Of a DNA stretch of 64,000 nt, positions 1 through 38,584 are shown in pieces. The stretch comes from [Bacillus] selenitireducens MLS10 (GTDB taxonomy: Bacteria; Bacillota; Bacilli; Bacillales; Salisediminibacteriaceae), in NCBI RefSeq assembly GCF_000093085.1, contig NC_014219.1, positions 496,001 through 560,000 of the forward strand, read 5' to 3'. Made by a program: the position numbers and the translations under genes. The notes beneath the pieces are model-generated. The model saw only the letters and a program-made list of their open reading frames with translations, searched no databases and was not told where the DNA came from. Numbering within the stretch: position 1 is the first letter of the stretch; the number at the start of each line of letters is the position of its first letter.

Positions 1-1056
1 GAAGACTTCCGGGTCGGTGAAGGTCACCCAGGGAATGGCATTGTAGGAGACTTTGGTATGAAGGCCGGTGATGAGCTGTTGGACGACGTGCTTCCCTTCG
101 ACGCCTGCGACATGGGTGAACTGAAGTCCGCCGTTGACGTCACCGACGGCATAGACGCCGTCCGCCGTCGTCCGCAGGCTGCCGTCGACTTTGACAGCAC
201 CGGTTGACTCGGTTTCGATGCCGGCAAAGGAGAGGTTCAGTCTTCCTGTATTCGGCCGTCTTCCTGCAGCGACGAGGATCTCATCGGCTTTGACGGTGAC
301 CTGTTTACCGTTCTGTTCGAGAAGAAGCTGTTTTTCGTTCTGTTCGTTCACAGTGACTTCTTTGACCATGGCTGAGCCGATGAACGTCAATTCCTCACTC
401 AGGACCTTGGTCATCGTCTCGCGGACTTCGCCGTCCTCGCGGAACAGCGGTGTATCTGCCATGTCGATGAGCGTCACTTCGCTTCCGAGGCGGGCGAAGG
501 CCTGAGCCATCTCGGAACCGATGGCACCGGCACCGATGACGGCGAGCCGGCGCGGGAGTGTCTCGAGACTGAAAATGGTCTCGTTCGTCAGTGGACCGGC
601 TTCTTTCAGTCCCGGAACCGGCGGGATGACGGGAGATGAGCCGGTTGAGATGACGATTTTTTCGCCGCGGATCGAGCCCGTCCCTTCGATGGCGATGACG
701 TCACGTTCAAGAAAGGAGGCATATCCGTCGTATACATCGACGCCCATGTTCTCAAAGCGCTCTTTGCTGTCATGCCCCTGAATATCCGTTATGGCGTCCT
801 GGACTTGCTGCATGACGGCTTTTATATCCACGTCTCCGGTGACGGACAGCCCGAATGCACCGGCCTGTCGGGCCTGGTGGACGGTTTTCGCCGCAGCGAT
901 GAGCGCTTTTGACGGCACGCAGCCGACGTTCAGGCAGTCGCCGCCGAGGGCCTTACCTTCGATCAAAGCGGTCTTCGCCCCGAAAGAAGCGGCACCTGCG
1001 GCTACGGTCAGTCCCCCAGATCCGCCTCCGATGACGATGACATCATACTTTTTCAT
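1..1056 (-). CDS. Mercuric-reductase/dihydrolipoamide-dehydrogenase-like flavoprotein disulfide reductase (partial)
   Basis: FAD- and NAD(P)H-dependent disulfide oxidoreductase of the pyridine nucleotide-disulfide family. The 352 visible residues hold the FAD motif GGGSGG (10-15), the redox-active pair CLNVGC (Cys41, Cys46) followed by VPSKAL, the NAD(P) motif GAGAIGSE near residue 176 and the second FAD motif VYAVGDV. The C-terminal dimerisation domain runs off the window edge. The start is the ATG whose ATGA overlaps the stop of the TVP38 gene. AGGAG lies nine bases upstream, a better spacing than for the in-frame ATG two codons earlier. Substrate is unknown: the Hg-specific N-terminal domain is absent, so calling it MerA would be unsafe. 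The neighbours suggest a thiol/selenol redox partner, which is inference. Confidence 0.88.
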   Translation of the reverse strand, partial: MKKYDVIVIGGGSGGLTVAAGAASFGAKTALIEGKALGGDCLNVGCVPSKALIAAAKTVHQARQAGAFGLSVTGDVDIKAVMQQVQDAITDIQGHDSKERFENMGVDVYDGYASFLERDVIAIEGTGSIRGEKIVISTGSSPVIPPVPGLKEAGPLTNETIFSLETLPRRLAVIGAGAIGSEMAQAFARLGSEVTLIDMADTPLFREDGEVRETMTKVLSEELTFIGSAMVKEVTVNEQNEKQLLLEQNGKQVTVKADEILVAAGRRPNTGRLNLSFAGIETESTGAVKVDGSLRTTADGVYAVGDVNGGLQFTHVAGVEGKHVVQQLITGLHTKVSYNAIPWVTFTDPEVF

Positions 1057-1715
1057 GCACATTCTCTCCTTCGTCGTCCAGGCCGATTTTGCCGGACAGT
1101 TTTTTTTCTGAGCAGGATCGGGACAATCATAAAGACGAGAAAGATGGCGACGGCGGCTGCGATCTGCCAGGGATTAAGCGTCACAAAGCTCGATCCGAGA
1201 AAGGCATAGGCAAAGGTACCCGGAATGATCCCGATGAACGTGGCGGTGATAAAGGCCCGGAATTTGACGCCTGCCGTGGCGGCGATGTAGCTGATGGCGT
1301 CGAAATTGATCACCGGAATAAAGCGGAAGATCAGGACGTAGACAAAGCCGTTGTGGGCCATTTGCTTTTGGATGGTCGCGGTTTTGCCACCCTCTTTGAC
1401 TTTGATCAGCCGTGAGCCGAGTTTCCCGCCGATGAGGTAGGCGATGGCTGCGGACAGGGTGGCTCCGATGACGATGATGACCGTTCCCCAAAGGGCACCG
1501 AAGGCCAGGCCGCCTGCGAGACTCATGACGGATGCAGGGAAGAGGATGATCGGACGGAGGGCATAGAGCGTAATAAACAGAATCGGTGCCAATGTCCCGA
1601 ATCCGAGAATCCAGTTGCGGATCTCTTCCGGTGATACATCGAGGTATGAGCGGGAGAACCAGAGCAGTCCTCCTATTACTGCGGTTACAAGTGCGATGGT
1701 CAGCCATCTGTTCAT
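1053..1715 (-). CDS. TVP38/TMEM64 (VTT domain) membrane protein
   Basis: Integral membrane protein of 220 residues in the TVP38/TMEM64 (DedA-like, SNARE-associated) family. An N-terminal membrane helix (4-22) is followed by the VTT core, with glycine-rich re-entrant segments (SLAGGLAFGALWG and IIPGTFAYAF) and RFIPVINFDAISY. The tail is basic (RKKTVRQNRPGRRRR). Family members act in lipid scrambling or membrane homeostasis, and in many bacteria they sit beside or are fused to flavoprotein disulfide reductases, exactly as here. ATG with AAAGGGA seven bases upstream. The stop overlaps the reductase start (ATGA), so the two are translationally coupled. The selenoprotein gene ends 30 bases upstream, so all three probably form one operon. 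Confidence 0.9.
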   Translation of the reverse strand: MNRWLTIALVTAVIGGLLWFSRSYLDVSPEEIRNWILGFGTLAPILFITLYALRPIILFPASVMSLAGGLAFGALWGTVIIVIGATLSAAIAYLIGGKLGSRLIKVKEGGKTATIQKQMAHNGFVYVLIFRFIPVINFDAISYIAATAGVKFRAFITATFIGIIPGTFAYAFLGSSFVTLNPWQIAAAVAIFLVFMIVPILLRKKTVRQNRPGRRRRECA

Positions 1716-1745: not shown

Positions 1746-2486
1746 TCAGTCTCGGCGCCAGCGGTATGGCAATTTTTGAATCTTCTCGTCGTCTTCTGTT
1801 CTGTTCTGAACGGCCTCAAGGAGATCGACGGTGATCTTCTCCTGGAGGTCGCTGCGCCCGGCCTGGCCGAACGTGCGGCCGAGGGGGAACTTGATGTGCA
1901 GCGCCCGGGGTACGGACACTTTTTCGGTCAAATCAGGCAAGTGCGTCACAGAGGCCGTTGCGATGCCGGCCTGTTCCGCTGCCTGCTGGATCAATCCCAC
2001 GGATTGATGGCAAATGTATCAGCCGGGGGAGAGAAGAAGCACATCGACGTGCTCTTTTTTCAACTGTTTCAGAATAACGGGGATGCTTTCCTGATCTAGG
2101 CGGTCCGTTTCCGGAATATAGCCCATCATGCCGTAATGCGTCTTGGCAACGGATCCGATCCGTCCCTCTTCGGCGAGCTTCTTCAGTGCTTCAAGGGGGA
2201 AGACCGCGCCCGTGTCTTTATCCGCTTCCTCCGTGTCGTAATGGGTGTGGGTAATCATCAGCTGATCCGGGTCTGTGTCAGACGGAATCAGTCTGACAGA
2301 CGGGTCACCCGCGTCGACATCGAAGCCCTCCTGTGATTTCAGGTGGACGCCTGCGGTCGTCAAAAACGCGACGTTCCAATTCGTCATCGGTTTTACCGGT
2401 GTCGTGAAAGCGTTCGTACGGTCACGATTATTGATGGTTCGGTTGGCTGAGAGCTTAAACAGCCAGTGCTTGATCTGCTTCAACAT
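1746..2486 (-). CDS. Selenoprotein, GrdB-related (glycine/sarcosine/betaine reductase selenoprotein B family), Sec156 at UGA
   Basis: A 246-residue protein if the in-frame UGA at 2019-2021 is read as selenocysteine. Otherwise translation stops after 155 residues and 90 family-like residues are left without a start. The frame is identical on both sides: VDVLLLSPG-U-YICHQSVGLIQQAAEQAG. As I know the family, this position carries Cys or Sec in a (C/U)xxC motif followed by HQTVGLIQ, so UYIC is a UxxC redox motif. Other family-like segments are TTAGVHLKSQEGFDVD, SDTDPDQLMITHTHYD and PRALHIKFPLG. A hairpin fitting the bacterial SECIS rules follows the UGA. The ATG has AGGGAGGA upstream. The reaction of these short GrdB-like proteins is unproven; thiol/selenol redox chemistry is likely. 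First gene of the operon with the TVP38 and flavoprotein genes. Confidence 0.88.
1984..2012 (-). promoter_or_regulatory. Candidate bacterial SECIS hairpin
   Basis: Directly after the UGA (minus strand) ATCAATC and GATTGAT form a perfect 7-bp stem around the loop CGTGG. An outer TGC/GCA stem is separated by a small internal loop. The apical loop begins 17 bases after the UGA and has G as its second base. Both fit the published bacterial SECIS rules (loop 16-37 bases from UGA, G in the first two loop positions). Confidence 0.75.
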
Positions 2487-2510
2487 GAATATCCTCCCTT
2501 TCTGTCCTAC

Positions 2511-12412: not shown

Positions 12413-12522
12413 TTCTTATCGTGAGAGGTGGAGGGAAAGGCCCTGCGAAACCTCAGCAACCAGCCTGCGTGGGGCAGGTCAGGTGCTAATTCCTGCGGAC
12501 CGGGTGTCCGTAAAGATAAGAA
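12413..12522 (+). ncRNA. SAM-I (S-box) riboswitch aptamer
   Basis: Shows the S-box core: P1 arm TTCTTATC (12413-12420) pairs with GATAAGAA (12515-12522). In between lie GAGAGGTGGAGGGAAAGGCCC, CGAAACCTCAGCAACC and GGTGCTAATTCC. SAM binding stabilises P1 and lets the downstream terminator form, lowering expression of the methionine operon. Confidence 0.96.
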
Positions 12523-31638: not shown

Positions 31639-31680
31639 GCATGAAAAAAAGATGGCGGATCAAGCTCGCGCCGTTTTTTT

Positions 31681-31840
31681 CCTCCATTCGTTGAGCTTTA
31701 GCACTGCAGGGCATAGAGCGGCGCTCAGCTGCGTTAAAAACCACCTTATGTCGATGGTTCCTGTTCAACCCATTGGCGTCTTTGGACGTTGTTGGGCATC
31801 AGCATGTCTCCACTGCAGGAGCCTCACCTAACGAGGGATT
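31681..31840 (-). ncRNA. M-box (ykoK) magnesium riboswitch
   Basis: The minus strand has the conserved M-box text in order: CGTTAGGTGAGGCTCCT, ACATGCTGATGCCCAACAAC, GTCCAAAGACGCCAATGGGT, TGAACAGGAACCATCGACAT, AAGGTGGTTTTTAA and GCTAAAGCTCAACGAATGG. This is a textbook Mg2+-sensing leader upstream of mgtE. About 280 bases of leader separate it from the gene; apart from the terminator I see nothing else in them. Confidence 0.95.
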
Positions 31841-31860
31841 CAAATGTGTATAACAGCTGA

Positions 31861-38232: not shown

Positions 38233-38330
38233 TGTACTGTAAATGAATTCGGGAAACATTCTCGGCCTCAATAGGCAAGGCAAGAAAGTTACCGTGATTC
38301 AGAGTATTTTACAACAAGGAGGCCGATGTC

Positions 38331-38531
38331 ATGATGACAGGCAAAGTAAAATGGTTTAATGCAGAAAAAGGGTTTGGATTTATCGAGCGTGAAGATGGCG
38401 ATGATGTTTTCGTTCACTTCTCCGCAATCCAGGCAGAAGGATTCAAGACGCTGGATGAAGGTCAGGACGTTGAATTCGAAATCGTCGAAGGAAACCGTGG
38501 CCCTCAGGCAGCAAACGTTGTAAAGCTGTAA
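38331..38531 (+). CDS. cspB: Cold shock protein
   Basis: RNA/ssDNA chaperone of 66 residues. The cold shock domain is complete with RNP1 (KGFGFIE) and RNP2 (VFVHFS). AAGGAGG precedes the ATG. A second Met follows immediately. The symbol stands for the family; which paralogue it is cannot be told from one copy. Confidence 0.96.
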
Positions 38532-38550
38532 TGTAATAACCATAATTGAC

Positions 38551-38584
38551 AAGCCTGCTGTTTTACACAGCAGGCTTTTTTTTA
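38551..38584 (+). terminator. Terminator of the cold shock gene
   Basis: AAGCCTGCTG / CAGCAGGCTT followed by eight T. Confidence 0.95.

Follow-up and report, generated by a model that had tools for sequence, protein, structure and literature searches.

A gene on the minus strand of the window (the whole 64,000-nucleotide stretch of DNA that was analysed), at positions 1746..2486, appears split under default gene calling and is most likely one intact gene, in which selenocysteine (Sec) is inserted at an in-frame UGA. Translation, profile matches and homologue alignment assign its 246-residue product to the GrdB/PrdB superfamily, with the motif U156-Y-I-C159. The product is almost certainly a selenoprotein, a prediction based on the conservation of the UGA, the Sec machinery of the genome and covariation in a hairpin. 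The best explanation of the whole, with a probability of about 90%, is a stand-alone GrdB/PrdB-family Sec protein, whose synthesis would be guided by a SECIS element; at a best guess it would act in redox chemistry together with a flavoprotein, and its substrate may be a compound of sulfur or selenium.

The interrupted reading frame

Translated from 2486 to 1746 with TGA read as U, the minus strand yields a single frame with one internal U, at residue 156 (2019..2021), and with a TGA at 1746-1748 as its terminal stop. A Shine-Dalgarno-like sequence, AAGGGAGG, containing GGGAGG, lies just 5' of the ATG (2493..2500, minus strand). Translation thus bears out the 246-codon frame broken by one UGA which the initial annotation had described without giving its strand. 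The same annotation had expected standard gene callers to split the gene, and the default ORF list indeed holds it as two pieces, one ending at 2019 and the other an 84-residue fragment. At the base composition of the window, a stop would be followed by 90 open codons with a probability of approximately 1%; the frame alone is therefore weak evidence, and it is the conservation of the UGA column that decides.

A survey that sampled 299 genomes of the same order found homologues in 45, comprising 41 intact UGA-bearing genes, three genes without a stop at the site and one decayed copy. Full SelA is encoded by 41/41 genomes with the intact UGA gene versus none of the other four, a distribution with a chance probability of 7e-6, uncorrected for kinship. 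The three genomes in which no stop codon occupies the Sec site (G014, G151 and G272) all lack full SelA, and Cys was seen there in G014 and G272. The decayed copy, that of a related selenoprotein (L087, G253:C20), is interrupted by a TAA and by frame breaks; its genome, too, is devoid of full SelA, and the copy is a natural record of loss. UGA occupies the same column in all 14 close orthologues, the others of which are 55-63% identical to the window protein, and it is also found in other subgroups. Sec or Cys stands at column 156 in every aligned homologue, as had been claimed for short GrdB-related proteins, and positions 156 and 159 are among the 18 invariant columns of the alignment (with Cys written for Sec). 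Among close orthologues, amino-acid difference is 0.40 before the UGA and 0.35 after it, while codon positions 1/2/3 change at 0.33/0.21/0.64 and 0.29/0.21/0.61, respectively. As judged from this pattern, which is the same on both sides, purifying selection persists downstream of the UGA. A scan of named GTDB genomes matched only two MAGs, at 43-46% identity, and no relative of the selenoprotein was found among the viral contigs searched.

A bacterial SECIS hairpin is predicted from conserved pairing and covariation at 1990..2008 (minus strand), with a 7-bp stem formed by positions +11..+17 and +23..+29 after the UGA and a loop of the form NGUNG, which has, near its start, the G expected of a bacterial SECIS. 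In the window the stem joins AUCAAUC (2008-2002) to GAUUGAU (1996-1990) around the loop CGUGG, as had been claimed from the DNA. Across 16 sequences, namely the 14 close orthologues with L089 and L090, all seven stem pairs are kept and two are compensatory: 13 sequences have A-U and 3 have G-C at +15:+25, and 14 have U-A and 2 have C-G at +12:+28. Against synonymous recodings, the window hairpin ranks above 98% in stability (p ~0.02), with several orthologues behaving likewise; against dinucleotide shuffles it does not stand out (z -1.0). For a distant subgroup (L036-L042, L044-L046, L049), which keeps the UGA within the motif PSUPxCQQSAGLVAR, the predicted hairpin is no stabler than synonymous recodings. 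The subgroup of L035 and L050 (motif PGUGxCH) features another predicted hairpin, with a strong stem and a UGUAU loop ~25 nt past the UGA, placed differently from that of the window clade.

The search for selA, selB, selC (tRNA-Sec) and selD, which the initial annotation had proposed as a check, found all four in the genome of the window (3,592,487 bases, one contig). Those of its proposed checks that were run all favour its interpretation. Profile matches reached 441 bits for SelA, 353 bits for SelB and 394 bits for SelD, a tRNA-Sec with a UCA anticodon was called by both Rfam and ARAGORN, and tRNA-Sec, selB and selA are grouped inside ~4.3 kb. The SelD gene (L017, G000:C1:360864-361790) is itself a predicted selenoprotein gene, with an in-frame UGA, the motif AGUGCK and U as residue 10 of the matched stretch. 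Full-length SelA occurs in ~139 of the 299 sampled genomes (~46%, tallied from the SelA search), so Sec use is common in the order, and the supposition that selenoproteins are uncommon in Bacillaceae fails at that level.

If the UGA were an ordinary stop, the locus would hold a truncated 155-residue protein and a dead fragment, through pseudogene formation or sequencing error. This would agree with the two pieces of default gene calling and with a hairpin which, taken alone, is unexceptional by shuffling, but it is made extremely improbable by the same UGA in 14 orthologues, the purifying selection downstream, the full Sec machinery and, in genomes lacking SelA, a Cys at this position. The pseudogene or stop reading was rejected on UGA conservation and the codon-position pattern. 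Translation of the UGA as an amino acid other than Sec, by a code change or suppression, would also leave the frame open, as would any code with TGA as a residue. However, the gene itself ends in TGA, as do some orthologues, and the presence of SelB and of a tRNA-Sec with a UCA anticodon, with the co-varying SECIS-like hairpin 3' of the UGA, reduces the probability of such a reading almost to nil.

Gene neighbourhood

The selenoprotein gene is the apparent head of an operon with genes for a TVP38/TMEM64 protein and a pyridine-nucleotide disulfide oxidoreductase. The former, a membrane protein with a VTT domain recognised by profile match (1053..1715, minus strand), begins 30 nt after the selenoprotein stop. 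The latter (1..1063, minus strand; 478 aa), typed via its homologue in L057, has a start overlapping the VTT stop and extends ~373 bases past the window. In some relatives the selenoprotein gene joins a cluster whose genes are homologues of E. coli ydjX/Y/Z and ynjB-F. In L057 the order is ynjB-ynjC-ynjC'-ynjD-ynjF-flavoprotein-selenoprotein-rhodanese-TVP38, and parts of this arrangement recur in L055, L056, L066, L053, L054 and L065. A VTT gene lies within 6.5 kb of the selenoprotein in 7/14 genomes, far over the 0.32 expected from the 4-10 VTT genes per genome (P ~1e-8, or 2e-4 counting four lineages, the genomes not being independent). The VTT neighbour is absent in seven same-family relatives (L058-L064), and the functional association thus does not extend to every member.

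YnjB is also encoded in three relatives without the selenoprotein, which leaves the link suggestive only. The genome of the window has, at ~3.537-3.546 Mb (G000:C1; L124:4886-13988), a complete ydjX-ynjBCDE-F-like cluster with no selenoprotein in it, whose presence counts in favour of the link. This cluster includes an ABC importer, a TVP38 protein and a rhodanese 54% identical to the one adjoining the selenoprotein in L057, and it is itself adjoined by two genes that match the two halves of NCBIfam NF045663 'diclust_near_Sec'. ArsR- and ArsC-like genes, named from sequence, lie upstream of the selenoprotein in L060-L062 and L065. Literature searches on TVP38, ynjB or ynjE together with selenoproteins returned nothing relevant. 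Elsewhere, the window contains an M-box (magnesium) riboswitch (31676-31842, minus strand), a SAM riboswitch (12413-12522, plus strand) and a borderline match to the cspA thermoregulator (38246-38582, plus strand).

Family, predicted structure and possible function

The initial annotation had termed the protein GrdB-related, which holds for the superfamily, the score against Pfam GRDB (PF07355) being 33.3 bits over a cut-off of 22, and does not hold for PrdB proper. The best NCBIfam match is TIGR04483 PrdB (E 4e-52), which, with the equal size and the UxxC motif, favours an identification as the Sec subunit PrdB of D-proline reductase. However, the score of 177 bits does not reach the cut-off of 300, against 392-422 for true PrdBs, namely L047 and L095, which are Cys forms, and one from Clostridia. 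In a phylogeny of 48 proteins, PrdB (18 rows) and the protein's own clade (14 rows) each form a group of their own (support 100/100 and 100/98). Moreover, no PF09338 (PrdA/GrdE-type) gene was found in the genome of the window by a search which finds PrdA-like genes in Clostridia, where such a gene adjoins prdB; one also adjoins the Cys form of G014. Score, tree and missing partner place the protein in the GrdB superfamily and not among proline reductase subunits, so that the PrdB assignment was rejected as very unlikely. The window protein is a stand-alone short GrdB/PrdB-family selenoprotein, distinct from D-proline reductase PrdB.

An AlphaFold2 model of the protein (pLDDT 90.9) is a Rossmann-like alpha/beta domain in which strand 149-153 and helix 160-172 flank residue 156. 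No sequence relative was present in the PDB, Foldseek gave no match below E 0.001, and VIA-align retrieved nothing beyond common Rossmann-like arrangements, the best having a Z of 9.6 (157 residues, 3.5 A), with no thioredoxin-fold chain among the matches listed. The Thioredoxin_3 profile matches weakly, below its cut-off, and the model around the UxxC is Rossmann-like. Since there is neither a solved relative nor a close fold match, the substrate is tied to nothing structural.

In the proposed mechanism, the hairpin 11-29 nt after the UGA would guide SelB, leading to the insertion of Sec at position 156, in a strand-helix loop of the predicted domain. Sec156 and Cys159, both invariant columns, may then form a selenenylsulfide-type redox pair, and it is highly probable, from sequence, that the protein is a UxxC redox enzyme. 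Its electron donor could be the flavin disulfide oxidoreductase whose gene is the second one downstream, a tentative assignment suggested by the operon. A small sulfur or selenium compound is a possible, rather doubtful, substrate, proposed because orthologues sit with rhodanese, TVP38 proteins and a YnjBCD-type ABC importer. It is unlikely, albeit conceivable, that the clade represents the Sec redox enzyme of a ydj/ynj-type module which takes up and reduces such a compound and consists of the YnjBCD importer, TVP38 protein, rhodanese and flavin disulfide reductase. If so, the metabolism of selenium or sulfane sulfur in Bacillales would draw on an enzyme that itself depends on selenium.

A further alternative concerns function only, the Sec reading being common to both: the operon neighbours may be incidental and the redox protein may have another role, e.g. 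in relation to arsenic or general thiol stress. It arises because some relatives adjoin the ArsC/ArsR-like genes mentioned above, and the same-family relatives without a VTT neighbour also agree with it. On the other side stand the enrichment of the VTT neighbour in about four lineages and the merged operon in L057, and incidental association retains an appreciable, if minor, share of the probability.

Comparison with known systems

Genomes and marine metagenomes have long yielded 'PrdB' selenoproteins with UxxC (PMC1088965, PMC2398784, PMC9312934, PMC13188914). Those of marine metagenomes (PMC1088965, PMC2398784) resemble the window protein in belonging to pfam07355, in their UxxC and in having Sec more often than Cys. 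PrdB as modelled by TIGR04483 shares with it length, superfamily and the Sec (or Cys) of UxxC at the same column, but the window protein attains about half the HMM score, falls in a separate clade, has no PrdA-type partner in its genome and reads PGUYICHQSVGLIQ where PrdB reads AGUGTCHRSAVI. With selenoprotein B of the GrdB/F/H type (PF07355), it aligns over the C-terminal half, Sec site included; unlike that protein, it is without the N-terminal half (246 vs ~440 aa) and its genome has no GrdE-type PF09338 gene, in a search covering that partner and leaving out GrdA, GrdC and GrdD. The Alphaproteobacterial protein named by PGAP 'glycine/sarcosine/betaine reductase selenoprotein B family protein' is likewise of the GrdB family, with no annotated reductase partner adjoining, but it shares ~30% identity, is longer, has been annotated as a single CDS and is set in another gene context. 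The window protein marks out a clade of GrdB-family selenoproteins in Bacillales, which curated models name only as distant PrdB, and its gene is a clear example of splitting by default calling.

With regard to gene context, the relevant system is the E. coli operon ydjXYZ-ynjABCDEF, whose TVP38 proteins, ABC importer, rhodanese and CDP-alcohol transferase have homologues among the selenoprotein neighbours in several Bacillales. The literature searched gave no settled role for this E. coli module. The E. coli operon differs in having the AhpD-like YnjA and no GrdB-family selenoprotein, and the repeated linkage of the selenoprotein to a transport and rhodanese module shared with E. coli offers a testable lead on the function of both.
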